A DNA stretch of 64,000 bases. Origin: Nitrospirota bacterium (lineage in GTDB: Bacteria; Nitrospirota; Thermodesulfovibrionia; Thermodesulfovibrionales; UBA6898). The stretch covers positions 1 to 64,000 of the forward strand of contig JAJXTV010000013.1 of assembly GCA_021783515.1 (NCBI GenBank). The letters are read 5' to 3'. The notes under the pieces are model-generated. The model made no database searches, was not told the origin of the DNA, and saw only the letters and a list, made by a program, of their open reading frames with translations. The position numbers were made by a program, and so were the translations under genes. This document shows positions 28,305-38,311 of this stretch, piece by piece. How positions within the stretch are numbered: the stretch's first letter is position 1; every line of letters starts with the position of its first letter.

Positions 28305-30545
28305 TCAGCCGGCGATCCGCTTTTTCGACAGCGCCGTCCGTATCGATGCGGCGATGTCGCTTTGGCCGAAGGGTTTCTGCAGAAAACCCGCTGCGCCGTC
28401 CCGGATGAGCTCCTCCATCCCTTCATACCCGTCCCGGCTGTAGCCGGAACAGAGCAGGATCGCAACGTCGGACCGGATCGCCTTTAGCATGCGGTATGCT
28501 TCCGTCCCGCTCATTTCCGGCATCATCATATCGAGGATCACCAGCGCTATCTCATCCTTCATTTCCCTGAATATCGTCAGTCCCGAGGCCGCCCCTTCCG
28601 CCATCATCACCGTATAACCCAGAGGAGTAAGCATGTCCCGGTATATGTCCCGCACGGAGGCGTCATCGTCAATCACCAGGATGGTTTCCGCCCCTCTGAT
28701 TTCCCCGCGGTCCGCGACGTCGTCGCAGCAGCCGTCTCCCGCGGGAAGGAAGACATGGAATCGGGTCCCCTTGCCGGTCTCGCTATGGAGATGGATATAG
28801 CCCCCGTGGTTCTCGACAATCGAATGCACCATATAAAGACCGAGCCCCGTCCCCTTTCCCGCTTCCTTGGTGGTATAAAAAGGCTCGAATATCCTTTCCT
28901 TCGTCGCTCCGTCCATTCCCGTGCCGGTATCGGAAACCGTCAACTCCACAAAGCGGTCGCCATCCTCCCGGCCGTTCGGAGGGGCATCCCCCTGCTCTGC
29001 CGGCACCGAGGTCCCGATCGTCAGCCGCCCACCGTCAGGCATCGCGTCGCGGGCGTTCACGGTCAGATTCAGGACCACCTGCTGCAGCTGCGAAGGGTCC
29101 GCCGCTATCTTCGGCAGGCCTTCCCCGTAATGCACCTCTATCTCGATCGTCTTCGGGATGCTTCTGCCGAGGAGTTCGACCGCCCCTTTCACCACTTCGT
29201 TGATGTCGACGCTCTTGATCTCCATCTTCTCTTTGCGTGTGATCGAAAGAATTGTCTTGGTGAGTTCGGCGCCCCTCTTCGCTGCGTGATGAATGATCTT
29301 CACGGGGTGATGGAAAACGTCTCCTTCCTGCGTCATATCGAGCAGCATTTCCGAATACCCGAGTATCGCCTGCAGCAGATTGTTGAAGTCATGCGCGATA
29401 CCCCCCGCGAGGGTGCCGACCGCGGTGAGTTTCTGCGACCTCAGAAGCCTTTCCTCCAGGCCCTTCTTCTCTGTGATGTCGATCAGGTATCCGTCGTACC
29501 CTTTCAGGACGCCGTTTTCCGCCGTCGCGGGGTAGAGAGACAATAACACGGTCAGTTCGTCCGAATCCCTCCCGCGGACGCTTTCCTCAAGATGTTCGGC
29601 GTTTCCGGCCTGCGCCTTCCGAAAACAGACCGTCACCCTCTCCTCTCCCCTCAGGATATCCGAAAAACGGGCCGCTTCTCCGAAGAGGTCGCGAAATTTT
29701 GAATTCGCCTCGACAATGGCGCCGCCGGCATCAAGTCTGAAGATCGCATGCTCGACCCGATCGAAAAGCTCCCGGATCCTGTTTTCGGAATCGACAAGCT
29801 TCGACTCCCTTTCCTTGATCGCCATGCTCATCTTGTTGAAGGCCGCCCCGAGCGCCCCCACCTCGTCGGCCGAAGAGACGTTCCTGACCTCGGGATACTC
29901 ACCCCTTTCGATTCTCTTTGCGGCAAGGGAAAGGGCCACAAGAGGTTTCGTAGCAATCGTCATGAGAATGAAGACGGCGATGCTGCTGCCGATAGTAAAC
30001 AGCAGCGCAAGCAGAAAGCCCCTCACCACGATCTTCTTCGCACCCTCATTCATGACGTCTTTCGAAAAACCGAGCCTCACCCATCCGATATGCTCCCTCA
30101 GTTCGCCGGACCCCGGATCGGAGTGAAAAATATCGATATCCTCCTTCGGCCTCACGCTGAAAATCGGGGCGTAGAACACAAGCATGTTACCGACGTCCTG
30201 CATGGCGATCGGGACGTCCGCAGAAAGAGAAGGGTCCCGGCCCGGAACTGCGGCGCCATCCTGGATGAGGAGATTCATCCTGTCGTCGAAAAAGGCGAGC
30301 GAGGAGACTTCGGAACTGGCCCTGACCGTCGTCACGACACCCCGGAGAAGCTCGGGATTGCCGGAAAGGACGGGCAGCTCGCCCGCCCTCGTCGCCAGGG
30401 TGGTGATCGCCTCGGCCCTCTTGATGATCTCGGTCCGGACGATATTTTTTTCGGTCTTGATGGCATCGAAGGTATAGACCGCCGACACGATGCCGAGGAT
30501 AGGAAGGATGAGGAGGAGCGCCTTTTTCCTGAAGGTCATTCTCAT
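28305..30545 (-). CDS. Hybrid sensor histidine kinase (HAMP-PAS-HisKA-HATPase-REC)
   Basis: 746-residue membrane sensor. Order: helix 1 (ALLLILPILGIVSAVYTF), periplasmic domain to about residue 180, helix 2 (FLLALLFTIGSSIAVFILM), HAMP (about 205-255), PAS (about 265-365), HisKA with phospho-acceptor LAGGIAHDFNNLLQAILGYSEML, HATPase with N box LNLTVNARDAMPDG, G1 DTGTGM and GTGLGLYMVHSIV, and a C-terminal receiver with acidic DDDAS, phospho-Asp in LVILDMMMPEMSG and Lys in QKPFG. No output domain, so the signal must pass to a partner encoded elsewhere. Ten bases separate it from the upstream binding-protein gene, implying the two work together as a sensor pair. Confidence 0.93.
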   Translation of the reverse strand: MRMTFRKKALLLILPILGIVSAVYTFDAIKTEKNIVRTEIIKRAEAITTLATRAGELPVLSGNPELLRGVVTTVRASSEVSSLAFFDDRMNLLIQDGAAVPGRDPSLSADVPIAMQDVGNMLVFYAPIFSVRPKEDIDIFHSDPGSGELREHIGWVRLGFSKDVMNEGAKKIVVRGFLLALLFTIGSSIAVFILMTIATKPLVALSLAAKRIERGEYPEVRNVSSADEVGALGAAFNKMSMAIKERESKLVDSENRIRELFDRVEHAIFRLDAGGAIVEANSKFRDLFGEAARFSDILRGEERVTVCFRKAQAGNAEHLEESVRGRDSDELTVLLSLYPATAENGVLKGYDGYLIDITEKKGLEERLLRSQKLTAVGTLAGGIAHDFNNLLQAILGYSEMLLDMTQEGDVFHHPVKIIHHAAKRGAELTKTILSITRKEKMEIKSVDINEVVKGAVELLGRSIPKTIEIEVHYGEGLPKIAADPSQLQQVVLNLTVNARDAMPDGGRLTIGTSVPAEQGDAPPNGREDGDRFVELTVSDTGTGMDGATKERIFEPFYTTKEAGKGTGLGLYMVHSIVENHGGYIHLHSETGKGTRFHVFLPAGDGCCDDVADRGEIRGAETILVIDDDASVRDIYRDMLTPLGYTVMMAEGAASGLTIFREMKDEIALVILDMMMPEMSGTEAYRMLKAIRSDVAILLCSGYSRDGYEGMEELIRDGAAGFLQKPFGQSDIAASIRTALSKKRIAG

Positions 30546-30555
30546 TCCCGCCCCT

Positions 30556-31455
30556 CTAGGGATATGCCTTCCTCGCCTTTTGCAGGAGCTCGGCAGGCAG
30601 ATGGATCTTCATCTTTGCTGCGGTCGACTTGTTGACATACAACACGAAGTTCCGGGGAGGAGAAGACGGTATCCGGCCGATGTCGACTCCACGCATCGCC
30701 TCGGATGCATCCTCACCGATATGCCGGCCAACATGGACCGGGTCAAAGACCAGCGCAAGGAGCGCCCCTTCCTTTACGCTTCTTTCCGAAACCCCCAGGA
30801 CGGGTATCCCCTTTCTGAAGGAAGAGAGATAAATTTCCTCGAGGGCCGCTGTGGTCAGCAGGGCGACGTCCGGAAGAAGGAGGATCGCGTCGCATGAATC
30901 GAGCTTCCTGACCGCCTCGACAAGCTCGATGGTACTCTTTACGCGGTGTGGCATCACCTGCGGATCGTCTCCGTCTTCAAGGGTCCGGAGAAGACCGGAG
31001 CTTCCGACGACGGCAATCCGCTTCACGGAAGGGATGTATCTCCTGATAAGGGCCGAATATTCCCTGACAGGGGTCGCCATATAAAAACCGGTGGTATTCG
31101 GCCTCGACACGGGAGGAGGAGTCACGACAAGGTCGTAAATCACGGGGGTCGACGCGGGGAGACGCAGCGCCTCCTGCAGCGCCTCCCTCCCGAGCGCCAC
31201 GACAACCTTCGCATCCTCTTTCTGGGCGATGCGATTCAGCCGGTCTCTCGCATCCGAAGGGGAATATACCTTGACCGTCGCATCGAGGGTCTCCCTGATG
31301 CCCGATATGATTTCCACTACGGGCGAGAGGCGAGTATCGCCGATGACGAGCACGTCAGCGGCCTCGGCCGTTGAGAGAAGGAGAAGGACGACAAACAAGA
31401 CAAGGGGAAATAACTCTCTTTTTTTAAATTGCCTCAGAACCCTCGCCCCTGACAT
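30556..31455 (-). CDS. Periplasmic ABC-type substrate-binding protein, sensor-associated
   Basis: 299-residue exported protein of the ABC_sub_bind (TrpX-like) type. Signal peptide KRELFPLVLFVVLLLLSTAEA, then two Rossmann-like lobes: DVLVIGDTRLSPVVEIISGIRE, VVALGREALQEAL, VIYDLVVTPPPVSRPNTTGFYM, KRIAVVGSSG, CDAILLLPDVALLTTAALEEI. No ABC permease or ATPase is encoded nearby. It is directly followed by the hybrid kinase, so I infer that it delivers a ligand signal to the kinase periplasmic domain. A dedicated promoter lies upstream. Ligand unknown. Confidence 0.82.
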   Translation of the reverse strand: MSGARVLRQFKKRELFPLVLFVVLLLLSTAEAADVLVIGDTRLSPVVEIISGIRETLDATVKVYSPSDARDRLNRIAQKEDAKVVVALGREALQEALRLPASTPVIYDLVVTPPPVSRPNTTGFYMATPVREYSALIRRYIPSVKRIAVVGSSGLLRTLEDGDDPQVMPHRVKSTIELVEAVRKLDSCDAILLLPDVALLTTAALEEIYLSSFRKGIPVLGVSERSVKEGALLALVFDPVHVGRHIGEDASEAMRGVDIGRIPSSPPRNFVLYVNKSTAAKMKIHLPAELLQKARKAYP

Positions 31456-31493: not shown

Positions 31494-31522
31494 ATTATAA
31501 ACATCCCAGGGGAAAAGCTCAA
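31494..31522 (-). promoter_or_regulatory. Sigma-70 promoter for the binding protein-kinase pair
   Basis: Minus strand TTGAGC (31517-31522), 17 bases, TATAAT (31494-31499), about 40 bases before the start codon. The -35 box overlaps the last codon and stop of the MFS gene. Confidence 0.6.
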
Positions 31523-32076
31523 TTGTTTTTTGGCTCCTGTATGAAGAAGAGAAGCGCGGTAGAACATACGATGACGATTGCGCCGAAATAAAATATCGCC
31601 TTCAGGCCGTAATACTTCGCGAGATACCCCCCGAGGATGAACCCCGCCGCGGTAAATACGCTCACCAGGGCGTTGAACCTCCCGATCTCAGAGCCCCTGT
31701 TGTCGGCCCGGGTGAGGTCGGCAAGCAGCGAGCCCCTGATGGTAAGGCTCACCGCGTTCGTCACGCCCAGAAGCGCCTGGAGGATATAGATCTGATATGT
31801 CTGACTGACGACCGTATACGAGAAGAGGACAAAGGCGTCGATGTAGGCCATACCAAAGAGAAAGGGCTTCCTCCCGAGCCTGTCCGAATAGCGGCCGACG
31901 TAATATGAAGAGGCCGCCTGCACGAGGATCATGATGCTGAAGGCATAGCCGAGCTTCTCCATGCCGCCGCTCTTCCCGGCGATGTAGAGGGTATAGAAGG
32001 GGCCGATCATGCCGTAGACCACGCCCCAGACGGAATTGACGAGGGTGAAGACGAGGAGGCTGCTGATCTTCCTCAC
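31519..32076 (-). CDS. Half-size MFS transporter in the peptide-maturase operon
   Basis: 185-residue protein with six helices equal to the N-terminal half of a major facilitator: TLVNSVWGVVYGMIGPFYTLYI, the loop 2-3 motif YVGRYSDRLGRKPFLFG (motif A), and a sixth helix ending FFIQEPKNN. Only 63 bases separate its stop from the next gene, so a second half is not hidden downstream. The first codon is GTG, 10 bases after the radical SAM gene. Either a truncated gene kept by chance or a half transporter that dimerises; export of the modified peptide is the natural contextual role. Confidence 0.8.
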   Translation of the reverse strand: MRKISSLLVFTLVNSVWGVVYGMIGPFYTLYIAGKSGGMEKLGYAFSIMILVQAASSYYVGRYSDRLGRKPFLFGMAYIDAFVLFSYTVVSQTYQIYILQALLGVTNAVSLTIRGSLLADLTRADNRGSEIGRFNALVSVFTAAGFILGGYLAKYYGLKAIFYFGAIVIVCSTALLFFIQEPKNN

Positions 32077-32086
32077 GGGGTGGCGC

Positions 32087-33394
32087 CTATGCTCCCTTTG
32101 TCTTGCGCCGGTATCTGATATCCTGCTTGACCATCGCTCCCAGGGTAGCGTCCAGATAGGGTTTCTTGCAGTCCTTGCGGTCGACCCTCCCCTCCCGCAG
32201 ATAGGTCATATATTTGCAGCCGCCGAAACACAGCGGCAGGTATTCGCAGCCGAGGCATTCGTCGTCTTTCCAGATGTCGAGTTTATGCGAATCGGAATAG
32301 TCGGTCATCCCCTCCCTGACGTTTCCGGTCTCGAAGCCCTTCTTTCCGATAAAACCGGGACACTTATAGAGGGTCCCGTCGAAATGCACCACATAAAAGT
32401 TCTTCAGCTCCACCTGGCAGGGCATCGGCAATATCTTCGGCGTGGAATAGCCCCGCTTCAATATCTCTTCCCTCAGATAAAGCCCAGCCTCAACGAGCCA
32501 GGGCTCGTTTATGGACATGCAGCCGTCGACGAAATCGGCGGGCGACGTGTCACCCTTTTCGCGGCCCATCACCGGGTCGAACTTCACCTGAGAAATCTTG
32601 CCGGGACCGAGACCTTCGCCTTCGAGATAGTCGAGAAGCCTCGGGAAGTCCTTGAAATTCTTACGGCCGAAGTTTCCGCCGATGCCGACCTTCACGATAT
32701 CGCAGGTATCCTTTATGTTCCTGATCAATATGTCAAAGCTCCCGCCTCCGCCCTTAAAAGGCCTGCATCTGTTATGCAGTTCGGCGGTGCCGTCGAGCGT
32801 GATCTTGACGTTTTGCATCCCGAGCGCCTTCAGTTCCCCGGCCACCTTCCGCTTAAAGAGAGAGCCGTTCGATACGAGGCTGAAGGTATATTCGGCCCCC
32901 TTCGATTCAGCAAAGGACTTTACGGCGCGGGAGATATAGACGATCAAGTCCTTGCTCAGGAGAGGCTCGCCGCCGAAGAAGTCTATATTAATCGACTTCT
33001 TCGTTTCGCTGAATCTATTCTTTATGAACTCAACGACATGGTCCGCCGTTTCCAAAGACATGTAAAGCTTGCCCTTCATGTCTCCCTCATAGCAGTATAC
33101 GCAGGCGAAGTTGCAGTCCATGTTCAGGACGACGGTAACACTCATTCCCGTGTCGCTTCTGTTGATGCCGTCGATGAAGCCGAGCATCGATCTCTTCTCG
33201 TCCATCCCTTCGGAAATAATGACACCAAGGTCGGATAGGGTCGCCAACGATTCGGAAGACAGTGAGCCCCTCTCTGCCGATTCGAGAAGCTGTTTTTTAA
33301 GGACCGAGACCGACGCCTTCTTTGTCGAATAAACGAGAATGCTTTCGGGCTTTTCTTCGAGGGGGTATATTTTTATGTATTTAGATACGTGCAT
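32087..33394 (-). CDS. Radical SAM/SPASM peptide maturase
   Basis: 435-residue radical SAM enzyme. An N-terminal ~90-residue region precedes NMDCNFACVYCYEG (Cx3Cx2C cluster motif), FFGGEPLL (SAM-binding GGE), SNGSLF and TLDGTAELHNRCRPFKGGGG. The C-terminal SPASM region has CQVELKN, DGTLYKCPGF and the cysteine-rich CLGCEYLPLCFGGCKY ... DCKKPY, ligands for auxiliary 4Fe-4S clusters. Such enzymes modify ribosomal peptides (thioether or related cross-links). It resembles, from memory, maturases annotated with 'geopeptide' precursors in Geobacter. Start at ATG 33392-33394, just beyond the attenuator; a 33-residue Cys-containing precursor is encoded 69 bases upstream. Confidence 0.92.
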   Translation of the reverse strand: MHVSKYIKIYPLEEKPESILVYSTKKASVSVLKKQLLESAERGSLSSESLATLSDLGVIISEGMDEKRSMLGFIDGINRSDTGMSVTVVLNMDCNFACVYCYEGDMKGKLYMSLETADHVVEFIKNRFSETKKSINIDFFGGEPLLSKDLIVYISRAVKSFAESKGAEYTFSLVSNGSLFKRKVAGELKALGMQNVKITLDGTAELHNRCRPFKGGGGSFDILIRNIKDTCDIVKVGIGGNFGRKNFKDFPRLLDYLEGEGLGPGKISQVKFDPVMGREKGDTSPADFVDGCMSINEPWLVEAGLYLREEILKRGYSTPKILPMPCQVELKNFYVVHFDGTLYKCPGFIGKKGFETGNVREGMTDYSDSHKLDIWKDDECLGCEYLPLCFGGCKYMTYLREGRVDRKDCKKPYLDATLGAMVKQDIRYRRKTKGA

Positions 33395-33410
33395 CACAAA
33401 TTCTTTCTGC

Positions 33411-33441
33411 AAAAAAAAAGGAGAGATGTCTCCATCTCCCC
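33411..33441 (-). terminator. Attenuator/terminator between precursor peptide and maturase
   Basis: On the minus strand GGGGAGATG (33441-33433) pairs with CATCTCTCC (33428-33420), loop GAGA, one G-U pair, followed by nine T residues (33419-33411). It lies between the peptide stop and the maturase start. Partial termination here would give many peptide transcripts per maturase transcript, the stoichiometry expected for RiPP precursors. Confidence 0.8.
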
Positions 33442-33463
33442 GTCTCCGGTATTGCCTCTTTTC

Positions 33464-33565
33464 CTACTTGATAGGTATAAGGGCGGCGCCGCAGCATGCG
33501 CCCATCGGGCCGACAACCGTCAGGTCGATGCCGCCATCGAGCACTTCGATCTCTTCTTTTACCAT
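33464..33565 (-). CDS. Precursor-like peptide of the radical SAM system (33 aa)
   Basis: Begins MVKEEIEVLDGGIDLTVV (leader-like, acidic) and ends GPMGACCGAALIPIK, a core-like tail with adjacent Cys24-Cys25 among Gly/Ala. Start ATG 33563-33565 has an ideal ribosome site (GGAGG, five-base spacing) and a consensus promoter 57 bases upstream; stop is TAG at 33464-33466. Too short for most gene finders. It is followed by a terminator-like hairpin and then the radical SAM/SPASM maturase, and sits downstream of a TonB-dependent receptor. Sequence, signals and context together make it very likely the maturase substrate. The modification (Cys thioether to Gly/Ala/Asp, or other) and the mature product are unknown. 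Confidence 0.85.
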   Translation of the reverse strand: MVKEEIEVLDGGIDLTVVGPMGACCGAALIPIK

Positions 33566-33621
33566 TGGATCCTCCTTTTAATGATGTGGTACTAATCGGG
33601 GTTGCCTTGATAAGTTATGCA

Positions 33622-33650
33622 AATATACCACAGGAAATATGACTTGTCAA
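33622..33650 (-). promoter_or_regulatory. Consensus sigma-70 promoter of the precursor peptide
   Basis: TTGACA (33645-33650), 17-base spacer, TATATT (33622-33627) on the minus strand; expected transcription start near 33614, leaving a leader of about 50 bases. Close to perfect, so strong expression of the short peptide message is likely. Confidence 0.8.
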
Positions 33651-33718
33651 GGGAAATATGCAAAAAAATAATATCCGAATGTCACCCATCAAAAAGTCGT
33701 ATTACGAAGCGATAAACA

Positions 33719-35650
33719 CTAGAACTTCACCCTCAACCCCGCCTCAAGCCATCTCCGCGGGTTCTTCTCCAGGCCGCTCGTATAATATGACCCGTTGAAT
33801 ATATTATGGGCGGTTGCGAAAATCTCCGCATTGACCTTCTCAGATGAAAAAAGGCTCTTCCGCACGTTCATGTCCCAAATGAAGGTATCGTATTTCGCGC
33901 CAGAATCTTCCGCGAGGTCCCACCAGGCGTAATGGCCGAAGAGCTGCGCCATAAGGCCCTTCCTGTCGTCGTACTTTATCCCGATGTTGCAGGCATAATT
34001 TACCGTCGGGTCGGTCTCTTCGGAGGCCCTCTTGTGGATATAGGCGAAGCCGGCCTTCAGCGATACGTTATAAAAGGGCACCGTCTCCGCCTCGACCTCC
34101 ACTCCCTGCCTCTTCACGTTCCCGTCATTGACGTAAATGACATTGCCTGACGGCAGGGAGCCCTTCCCAATTGAGTCGCTCAGGTCATAGCGAAAGATCG
34201 TCGCCTTCGTCCAGAGAAAATCGGTCAGGTTCGATTCCACACCGACCTGATAGGACCAGACGCTCTCCTGAGCAAGACCGGGATTCGGGTCGGTGAAGAG
34301 CCCCCCGCCACTGGTCCAGGAAAGCGGCGGTATGGTGAAGCCCCTCGAAACGGAGCCCCTCAATATCGTCTTTTCGGCAAGCTTATATGTCACCCCAAGG
34401 CTCGGGCTCGTGAAAGAGCCGGTGACATTGTTATGGTCGAACCGTACGCCCGGCGTAACCGTAAAATCTCCCAACGAGATCGTGTCGTTTGCGTACACCG
34501 CCCATTTGTCGATCGAGGGATTGGCATTAAGCATATAAATTCCGTCAAAGTTCTGGTCGAGGCTGCCGTGGCTGAAATCCAGGCCGATGACGCCGGTCGC
34601 AATGCCATGCTTCCAGACGAGCTTTCCGCTTCCGGCGGTCGTCTCTTCGTCGAAAATGATATGCAGGAAAGGTTCGCCGGTGCTGAGAAAGTCATTCAGC
34701 TGGACAAATCTGTTCTTGAAGGTATAGAACATCGCCTGGAGGCTGAGCTCCGGGGATATCACCGCGTCGACCGATCCTGTCACGAAGAGCGTGCGGGCCA
34801 CACCCTTCGAGCTGAGGTCGAAGTCGACCGAATCGAGGAACTTTTCATGCGGCTCGCTGTATCCCGCGGTCAAACCAACGTTCACGTCCCTGGAGATGTC
34901 GAACCTGAGTTTAGAATAGAGGCTGTAGCTCTCGAAGTCCCTGTTGTCCCTGAGGCCGTCGGACCTCTGCTTACCCGCAAAGAGATAATATCCGAGAGGC
35001 CCGGCCTTTCCCGATACCTCGCCGTTATAGTCCTGCGTACCCCTCTCGCCAATAGATCCGCTGAGCGTCCCCGAAGGAACCGGCGAACTTCCCGCATTCT
35101 TTGTAATGATATTGACGACACCGCCGAGGGACGAGCCCCACGAAGAAGATGCCGGGCCTTTGATGATCTCTATGCGGTCGATGATCCTGACGGGTATCGT
35201 ATTCGTCTCGGCGCTGCCCTCGTTAAGAAAGTTCCATGTCACCCCGTCCACGAGGACGAGGACATGCCTTCCCTCGGAACCCTGAATGTGCAGGATGGAC
35301 GAGCTGCCGAAGTCCGTCGTCCCGAAATCGACAAAGACGTCGGTAACCCTGTTGAGCACCTCGGCGACGGTATGGGCGTTCATGTCCTCGATCTCTTTGG
35401 CGGTGACAACGGTCATATTCTCGGCCACCTGCGAGATCGATTTCTGAGACCTCGTCGCCGACTGGACATAAAGGTCCTTCTCGTCCCAGAAGAGAAGGAG
35501 CTCGGCCTTCGTCAGCTCGGCCGGAGACATCTTACTCGTGTCCGGCTGATCGTTGCTGCCTTCCGCGGCATAAGAAAAGCGTGCACCGGGGAATATGAAT
35601 AGACAGAGGATTAATGCTGAGGCAGCGGCGAAGAAGCATTTCTTTCCCAT
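33719..35650 (-). CDS. TonB-dependent outer-membrane receptor
   Basis: 643 residues: signal peptide (FFAAASALILCLFIFPGARFSYA), plug domain with TVVTAKEIEDMNAHTVAEVLNRVTDVF, RHVLVLVDGV, RIIDRIEIIKGPASSSWGSSLGGVVNIITK, then a 22-strand-type barrel ending in the outer-membrane signature RRWLEAGLRVKF (terminal Phe). Imports a ligand through the outer membrane using TonB energy; no TonB/ExbBD genes are present. The BtuB/CirA-like plug does not reveal the ligand. It has its own promoter and lies directly upstream of the peptide/maturase unit, suggesting that it takes up the modified peptide, a metal complex of it, or the ligand whose use the system governs. Confidence 0.95.
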   Translation of the reverse strand: MGKKCFFAAASALILCLFIFPGARFSYAAEGSNDQPDTSKMSPAELTKAELLLFWDEKDLYVQSATRSQKSISQVAENMTVVTAKEIEDMNAHTVAEVLNRVTDVFVDFGTTDFGSSSILHIQGSEGRHVLVLVDGVTWNFLNEGSAETNTIPVRIIDRIEIIKGPASSSWGSSLGGVVNIITKNAGSSPVPSGTLSGSIGERGTQDYNGEVSGKAGPLGYYLFAGKQRSDGLRDNRDFESYSLYSKLRFDISRDVNVGLTAGYSEPHEKFLDSVDFDLSSKGVARTLFVTGSVDAVISPELSLQAMFYTFKNRFVQLNDFLSTGEPFLHIIFDEETTAGSGKLVWKHGIATGVIGLDFSHGSLDQNFDGIYMLNANPSIDKWAVYANDTISLGDFTVTPGVRFDHNNVTGSFTSPSLGVTYKLAEKTILRGSVSRGFTIPPLSWTSGGGLFTDPNPGLAQESVWSYQVGVESNLTDFLWTKATIFRYDLSDSIGKGSLPSGNVIYVNDGNVKRQGVEVEAETVPFYNVSLKAGFAYIHKRASEETDPTVNYACNIGIKYDDRKGLMAQLFGHYAWWDLAEDSGAKYDTFIWDMNVRKSLFSSEKVNAEIFATAHNIFNGSYYTSGLEKNPRRWLEAGLRVKF

Positions 35651-35675: not shown

Positions 35676-35704
35676 AAAATATCACGCGAGGCCGGATTTG
35701 TCAA
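35676..35704 (-). promoter_or_regulatory. Consensus sigma-70 promoter of the TonB receptor gene
   Basis: TTGACA (35699-35704), 17 bases, TATTTT (35676-35681), then GGGGGGCCTC before the ATG. Upstream, at 35749-35778, a TGCCGG/CCGGCA inverted repeat could be a regulator site. Confidence 0.7.
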
Positions 35705-37666: not shown

Positions 37667-38311
37667 TCACTTCAGGGCCGCCGCCGGCAGTGTGATCCAC
37701 TTCTTTCCCTTTCCGTAGTAATAGACCTCGCCGTCCTGCCTGATCACCATCGACTCCTCGTTTTCGGCCATGAAGGCCGTTTCCGGGATGCCGGCGATCA
37801 CTTCTTTCGTCAGCATCTCGTCCCGGCCGAACGCAGACGACGAGAGAAAAGACTTCAGAAGGTAGGAAATCGCCAGATAGCTCGCCGGCCTGGAAACCGT
37901 AATCTGCCGCGAAATCGGGGAAATGCCCGGACCGATAAGCTTGATCCCGACCGGCACCGTCGTGATCGCCGGAAGCGGTATCTCCCGGATGTCGGGTGAC
38001 TGGATGCTGCTTCCGCGCAGGGCCATGCCGTGCTCGGGGACGAAAACGACGACGAAGTTCCTCCCGCTGGCCTCGAGCTTCCCCAAAAACGCATCGATGT
38101 TGCCGAAAAGGCGAAGGCCGAACTCCCGGTAGAGCACGGAGGGCTTCTTTCTCCACCACTCGCTGTCGTCGGCCCAGTGGGCGCCTCCGTGCATCGTCGT
38201 GATGTCCATATAGAGAAAGGCCTTCTTCTCCCGGGAATCCTCCCTCATTTTCCACCAGCGGTTCAGTATCTCAAGGTCGTCATAGATGGGGGAGTAGTCC
38301 CGCGTGTCCAC
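37667..38311 (-). pseudogene. bcsG: C-terminal fragment of BcsG-like phosphoethanolamine transferase
   Basis: 214 codons matching the last part of BcsG (alkaline-phosphatase/sulfatase fold; decorates cellulose with phosphoethanolamine): DTRDYSPIYDDLEILNRWW, FLYMDITTMHGGAHW, VVVFVPEHGMALRG and LREIPLPAITTVPVGIKLIGPG. BcsG is about 550 residues with N-terminal helices; here the frame starts at a GTG and is closed by an in-frame TAA about 20 codons further upstream, so the membrane part and the nucleophile region are missing. No other bcs gene is nearby. Most likely a decayed remnant. Confidence 0.75.

Follow-up and report, generated by a model that had tools for sequence, protein, structure and literature searches.

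A geopeptide-type radical SAM maturase, its short Cys-Cys peptide and linked receptor and sensor genes in Nitrospirota and Desulfobacterota

What is a 33-residue peptide with two adjacent cysteines for, when its gene lies between those of a TonB-dependent receptor and a radical S-adenosylmethionine (SAM) enzyme? The question is raised by a minus-strand gene run in a Nitrospirota bacterium (GenBank assembly GCA_021783515.1), within positions 1 to 64,000 of contig JAJXTV010000013.1; this whole 64,000-nucleotide stretch is called the window. An earlier sequence-only reading had proposed that the peptide is modified by the enzyme, exported by a half-size major facilitator superfamily (MFS) protein, and recovered or sensed through the receptor. 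Here, we report that, judged by conservation across genomes, the peptide is a genuine gene, and that receptor, peptide, maturase, a periplasmic binding protein, and a histidine kinase are a conserved module of which the half-size MFS protein is an optional part (Table 1). The occurrence of the same gene set across two phyla suggests a system, not yet described, for peptide signalling or scavenging.

The precursor peptide and its maturase

Maturase homologues were collected from 396 genomes in the phylum to which the window belongs and 395 of Desulfobacterota (including Desulfobacterales), with the TIGR04280 cut-off exceeded in 40 and 31, respectively. Locus genes were called mechanically as longest open reading frames (ORFs), and many loci are pieces of metagenome-assembled genomes. 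The window's own genome (3.16 Mb, 98.7% complete) carries two geopeptide loci, one in the window and one on contig C6.

The 33-residue frame (MVKEEIEVLDGGIDLTVVGPMGACCGAALIPIK) has the ideal ribosome site (AGGAGG) described for it earlier and matched no NCBIfam (18950 models) or Pfam family. A small same-strand ORF with a Cys-Cys (CC) tail was found just upstream of the maturase at 73/94 homologous loci, compared with 8/94 on the reverse strand, 5/94 downstream, and about 4/94 in shuffled sequence. Where the maturase scored above 300 bits against the window enzyme, the count was 69/82 (reverse strand, 7/82). Further CC peptides lie just beyond the scanned stretch at L017 (downstream), L020, L055, L088, L156, and L164, and some loci (L063, L161) have two precursors. 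CC is not independent evidence, because it was the search criterion; length, position, and leader motif are independent. The leader motif, [IVL]x[IVL][ILVF]xxG, was present in 60/69 distinct ordinary-class peptides, mostly 8 to 12 residues ahead of CC, and the tail after CC was 7 to 10 residues long in 60/69, with G at CC+2 (31/69), P at CC+6, and R at CC+8 as its commonest residues. The ratio of nonsynonymous to synonymous differences (pN/pS), pooled over 14 pairs of related peptides, was 0.31, uncorrected. A peptide that was not conserved beside orthologous maturases, or whose codons were free of purifying selection, had been named in advance as fatal to the proposal, and these counts show the opposite on both points. 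The tail motif offered as a search key, GPxxACCGxAxIPIK, was too narrow: what is conserved is the leader motif, CC, and then mostly 7 to 10 residues. It was abandoned as a search key, since cores differ too strongly among close species.

One clade of loci (L148, L149, L153, L154, L155, L157) has maturases scoring 396 to 440 bits against the window enzyme and no recognisable CC peptide nearby. Some of these adjoin a full-size MFS gene and long reading frames, and the precursor is possibly elsewhere in the genome.

The likeness of the enzyme to maturases annotated with "geopeptide", suspected earlier, was borne out by a match to TIGR04280 (552.3 bits; cut-off, 400) over profile positions 1 to 428 of 428. 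Its start is better placed at ATG 33394 than at TTG 33412, because the profile and the homologues begin at MHVSK. The SPASM cysteines that had been noted are also there, with a CX3CX2C motif (C94/98/101) and the complete seven-Cys pattern C326-x13-G-x4-C345 ... C380-x2-C383-x5-C389-x3-C393 ... C409 (TIGR04085, 54.9 bits; cut-off, 27). The runner-up families (CefB, TIGR04463, and PapB-type peptide maturases) scored far under their cut-offs. An AlphaFold model from 11 sequences (mean predicted local distance difference test [pLDDT], 77.8; predicted template modeling score, 0.80) was weak near the cluster-binding loops; its residues 7 to 55 (pLDDT 84 to 89) are predicted to form three strands and then helices, of the peptide recognition element (RRE) type. 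Foldseek aligned the whole chain to CteB (5WHY; E value, 3.7e-19), ahead of TigE, anSME, SuiB, and ChlB, and CteB (5WGG; 2.2e-22) was also the nearest Protein Data Bank entry by sequence. Since CteB is nearest by both fold and sequence, thioether formation would be the likeliest chemistry. Related maturase-like radical SAM genes also occur four in a row on one strand of a Desulfobacterales contig (G397 contig C194:1534-6804), scoring 199 to 203 bits and less on TIGR04280.

The terminator-like hairpin reported between peptide and maturase has a T-tract and recurs as such in 53/75 cases; shuffled sequence gave 1 and a coding control gave 2. Among the promoter-like sites, the one described as the receptor's own has counterparts (at least 10/12 matches) ahead of TonB genes at 21/76 loci, against 3.8 in shuffles. 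For the peptide, the near-consensus site is present in the window as stated, but strong sigma-70 sites upstream of the peptide were not clearly enriched across loci (6/75, against 2.5 expected from shuffles). Promoter-like matches in the region as a whole showed no excess (4 found, 3.3 expected from shuffles), and sigma-54 sites showed no convincing enrichment upstream of receptor or peptide, nor in loci with NtrC-type regulators.

Receptor, sensor genes, and the half-size MFS protein

The genes form a single minus-strand run from 35650 to 28305 in the order receptor, peptide, maturase, half-size MFS protein, PF04392 protein, and hybrid kinase, with gaps of 153, 69 (counted to the maturase ATG), 10, 63, and 10 bases. 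All elements listed by the sequence-only reading are present on this strand; the extent it gave (31519-35650) omits the last two genes of the run (30556-31455 and 28305-30545). Neighbour clustering of 98 maturase loci gave the TonB receptor at 79, a kinase or regulator at 70, PF04392 at 57, and the half-size MFS protein at 11. The first count answers the co-occurrence check that had been suggested for TonB receptors. Across 47 loci with a maturase above 300 bits and at least 5.5 kb on each side, the receptor was found at 43, PF04392 at 36, a kinase (by motif) at 32, and the half-size MFS protein at 6. The partner set first proposed was right to hold the receptor and the MFS half, the latter as an optional part, and missed two widely conserved partners, the periplasmic binding protein and the histidine kinase. 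NtrC- or LuxR-type response regulators occur at part of the loci. Gene order varies, with the partners downstream in the window's relatives and divergent upstream in many loci of the second phylum.

By family searches, the window's genome has three TonB plugs and three PF04392 proteins, two of each within its two geopeptide loci; with so few copies per genome, the association is strong. The third receptor adjoins cobalamin genes (read from translations) and, at 26% identity, is the own-genome receptor most distant from that of the window, while geopeptide receptors within the same family of genomes are 40 to 74% identical to it. In two genomes, G093 (100% complete) and G384 (82%), the sole TonB plug found is the geopeptide one. 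Distances correlated with those of the maturase for the receptor (Mantel r, 0.83), PF04392 (0.57), and the kinase (0.68), with 0/500 permutations as high. Nine genomes have two diverged loci (maturase identity, 43 to 55%), so the common history of the species does not fully account for this co-divergence.

No N-terminal signalling domain (FecA-type transducer) was matched on the window receptor, which showed Plug and barrel alone. Its identification as BtuB was rejected (TIGR01779, 130 bits; cut-off, 599.7; separate receptor beside the cobalamin genes), as was PqqU (NF041535, 49 bits; cut-off, 1200). Neither an ABC permease nor an ABC ATPase turned up among recurrent neighbours, and the PF04392 protein therefore looks like a sensor part. 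The third PF04392 protein of the genome (L189:4518-9533, contig C13) is preceded by a weakly MtrB/PioB-like outer-membrane barrel and followed by a 691-residue ORF in the kinase position; neither maturase nor peptide was found there, and the locus perhaps repeats the sensing layout for a different ligand.

The MFS protein has the six helices ascribed to it and matches just the N-terminal half of MFS_1. Its ten best homologues in 392 genomes are half-size without exception (frames of 191 to 268 codons between stops), and each has a TIGR04280-type maturase as its neighbour; homologues ranked after them are full-size (391 to 432) and 26 to 28% identical. In an alignment, the half-size proteins share an end right after the sixth helix. 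The family, seen nowhere but beside geopeptide-type maturases, is represented in the window and at L017, L019, L052, L060, L063, L064, L071, L089, L101, and L173. A broken gene was rejected as the explanation, since half size is conserved at 33 to 89% identity; the protein at 31519-32076 did not match a complete twelve-helix, full-length MFS profile. The protein presumably acts as a dimer; candidates for a homodimeric MFS exporter of this kind are rare.

Elsewhere in the window, a 214-residue minus-strand ORF (37667-38311) matches just the C-terminal part of BcsG (PF11658 positions 319 to 516), as a fragment or short variant.

Table 1. Features of the window's gene run and of related loci
Feature	Position	Strand	Basis
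Receptor promoter-like site, TTGACA-17-TATTTT	35676..35704	-	Sequence match
TonB-dependent receptor	33719..35650	-	Pfam Plug 76.5 bits, barrel 119.7 bits
Peptide promoter-like site, TTGACA-17-TATATT	33622..33650	-	11/12 match
Precursor peptide (geopeptide), 33 aa	33464..33565	-	Recurrence, leader pattern, selection
Hairpin and T-tract between peptide and maturase, probable partial terminator	33412..33441	-	Fold z-score -4.3
Radical SAM/SPASM maturase with RRE-like N-terminal fold, 435 aa	32087..33394	-	TIGR04280 552.3 bits; cysteine motifs; CteB structure match
Half-size MFS protein, 185 aa, N-terminal six-helix half	31519..32076	-	MFS_1 positions 9-177 of 347
PF04392 (ABC_sub_bind) periplasmic binding protein without transporter	30556..31455	-	58.3 bits, cut-off 25.9
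Hybrid histidine kinase, 746 aa	28305..30545	-	Periplasmic sCache-like region, HAMP, PAS, HisKA, HATPase, receiver
Lysine-rich precursor, own genome	L090:7600-7866, contig C6		Histone H1/HC2-like lysine-alanine repeat leader, CC tail
Sister-clade loci	L098, L099, L100, L102, L103, L104, L107, L108		Single-Cys peptide just downstream of maturase

Lysine-rich leaders and a single-Cys sister system

Twelve peptides were classed as lysine-rich, 11 of them with K/A/T-repeat leaders and an unchanged CC tail; the twelfth (L101) is borderline. One is the 88-residue precursor at the second locus of the window's own genome (...KKTTRKATAAPCCRGVVMTVR), whose leader resembles the histone H1-like HC2 family (31.8 bits, under the cut-off of 40). 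Lysine-rich leaders were also found at L054, L056, L059, L077, L079, L081, L082, L084, and L085, and the related pair L084/L090 gave a pN/pS of 0.18. The lysine-rich label needs four changes on the maturase tree, so leader type switched more than once, which raises the question of how leaders so dissimilar are recognised by a single maturase family.

A supported clade of its own is formed by eight maturases that score under the TIGR04280 cut-off and have no CC peptide upstream. At a minimum of 7/8 of these loci, an unannotated single-Cys peptide of 23 to 25 residues with a good ribosome site (e.g., MKIIKKGEKKVKSTPVHCTFLIG and MKIIKKGDRKENSKPVYCMFFIM) comes right after the maturase; that of L099 sits inside a longer frame. 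These peptides share the leader pattern I-x-K-K-G. The next gene encodes a PF00496 binding protein (SBP_bac_5, OppA/DppA type), a type that commonly binds peptides, and a kinase gene follows. Peptide type and binding-protein family thus change together, which is support, though not proof, for a binding protein that reads the peptide. On gene content, the sister loci are a second, related peptide system.

A possible peptide signal, its rivals, and known systems

What, then, might the module do? The reading that we prefer, tentatively and with somewhat less than even confidence, is a self-made, matured peptide signal (pheromone) whose re-entry is TonB-gated. Its genes, their conservation and linkage, and selection on the peptide are observed; from them we infer a series of steps that runs through cross-link, cleavage, export, import, and sensing. 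The peptide would be produced in excess over the enzyme, because a partial terminator, with presumably partial read-through, lies between the two. Its leader motif, IEVLDGG, would dock onto the RRE-like N-terminal domain of the maturase, which would join both adjacent cysteines to nearby residues via thioether bonds, and a protease would release a C-terminal core of roughly 12 to 15 residues. The core would exit the cell, through the half-size MFS protein (probably as a dimer) where present; the product, too large for porins, would re-enter through its own TonB receptor. In the periplasm, the PF04392 protein would bind it and pass the signal to the histidine kinase, an arrangement that LuxP-LuxQ and TorT-TorS use with different ligands. 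Closely related species (window versus same-genus G320) differ in the core but keep the leader, which counts for a signal. More doubtful is the wider proposal that radical-SAM Cys-Cys or sister single-Cys peptides are widespread autoinducers of Nitrospirota and Desulfobacterota, with TonB re-entry and binding-protein/kinase readout, a homodimeric half-size MFS exporter in some lineages, and lysine-rich leaders in others.

Several observations weigh against a signal. The candidate exporter is present in only 11/98 loci, which leaves export without an assigned gene in most. The cysteine thioether cross-link in the product is predicted by analogy with the nearest relatives, PapB, CefB, and CteB. 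No regulator site shared across loci was found upstream of receptor or peptide. Beyond the maturase, the core tracked receptor and binding protein weakly (partial Mantel r, 0.08 to 0.14), and the leader tracked the receptor at least as well as the core did, so that the correlation is not core-specific. The kinase, too, could sense another ligand.

The main rival, which we prefer less and think unlikely, is a metallophore or scavenger: the secreted Cys-Cys peptide would bind a metal or cofactor, return via the TonB receptor, and be sensed in loaded form by binding protein and kinase. TonB receptors mainly import metal chelates and cobalamin, and the vicinal cysteines (invariant by search pattern) would be good soft-metal ligands if not cross-linked, though poor ones if both are in thioethers, as in the CteB group. 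Such a product would be a radical-SAM counterpart of methanobactin, whose operons (PMC3621798) encode a short Cys-bearing precursor and its maturases together with an exporter and a TonB receptor that has signalling of its own. Against it, neither MbnB/MbnC nor a metal transporter, nor any other metal-handling gene, is among the identified recurrent neighbours, and a kinase with a binding protein is not a usual metal regulator; the metal- or cofactor-binding product suggested by the sequence-only reading may nevertheless still be the right one. An improbable alternative keeps the peptide in the cytoplasm or periplasm as a cofactor or cell-bound redox peptide, with receptor and sensor genes serving some other imported ligand, e.g., corrinoid or haem. 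PQQ and mycofactocin are radical-SAM RiPP (ribosomally synthesized and post-translationally modified peptide) cofactors, most loci have no adjacent exporter, and the receptor is similar to BtuB, albeit at a score far under the cut-off. Yet the genome has a separate TonB receptor beside its cobalamin genes, no enzyme able to use a cofactor is recurrently adjacent, and where genomes carry paralogous loci, the receptor still varies closely with the maturase. Least probable is a microcin-like antimicrobial, which would use TonB receptors to get into competing cells while the local receptor and kinase detect rivals. Antimicrobial activity is known for several sactipeptides and microcins, the latter of which exploit TonB receptors; here, no conserved immunity gene or dedicated ABC exporter was found, and the receptor is in the producer's own operon, kept in 79/98 loci.

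If receptor and sensor do handle the peptide, the preferred signal reading would give a TonB-gated peptide signal (or, on the rival reading, a radical-SAM metallophore) in groups whose cell-cell chemistry is little known, some of them related to bacteria that cycle metals and sulfur. Peptide binding is open to direct test for the PF04392 protein and for the pair of single-Cys peptide and OppA-type protein.

LuxP-LuxQ and TorT-TorS are binding-protein/histidine-kinase pairs and share with the window a transporter-less periplasmic binding protein gene adjoining that of a membrane kinase with a periplasmic region. The window differs in its PF04392 fold family, the co-encoded TonB receptor, and a modified peptide as presumed ligand source. 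PqqU, a TonB receptor that imports PQQ, is a precedent for the uptake of a radical-SAM RiPP product; the window receptor differs from it by the low NF041535 score given above. Methanobactin operons, defined by MbnB and, in most families, MbnC (PMC3621798), likewise bring together precursor, maturase, exporter, receptor, and signalling. Here, however, the maturase is a radical SAM enzyme, no MbnB/MbnC was found among the window genes around the peptide (radical SAM, MFS, PF04392, and kinase by Pfam), the receptor has no signalling N-domain match, and kinase and binding protein stand in place of a sigma/anti-sigma pair.

Closer is the SCIFF ranthipeptide system, whose maturase, CteB, is the nearest solved structure and acts, as the window enzyme would, on a Cys-bearing C-terminal core. 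Its layout of RRE, radical SAM, and SPASM domains is probably shared by the window enzyme, in which the N-terminal fold is RRE-like. A title cited in PMC8326336 reports that SCIFF-derived ranthipeptides take part in quorum sensing. The present peptides have two adjacent cysteines (or one) instead of six, in a Gram-negative locus with a TonB receptor and a periplasmic sensor pair. Searches for "geopeptide", TIGR04280, and radical SAM with SPASM and Geobacter found no paper, which is weak evidence because subscription journals lay mostly outside the search; within that scope, no description was found of the whole module, the half-size MFS protein, the lysine-rich leaders, or the sister system. 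The core pair of maturase and peptide is of a known kind, because it is named in NCBIfam: the window has both the full-length, above-cut-off TIGR04280 match and the short CC peptide directly upstream that mark geopeptide maturases. Where the window goes beyond that description is in the receptor, binding-protein, and kinase partners, the half-size MFS protein, and the lysine-rich leaders of related loci, so that the bare hidden Markov model name "geopeptide" becomes a six-gene module with testable partners.

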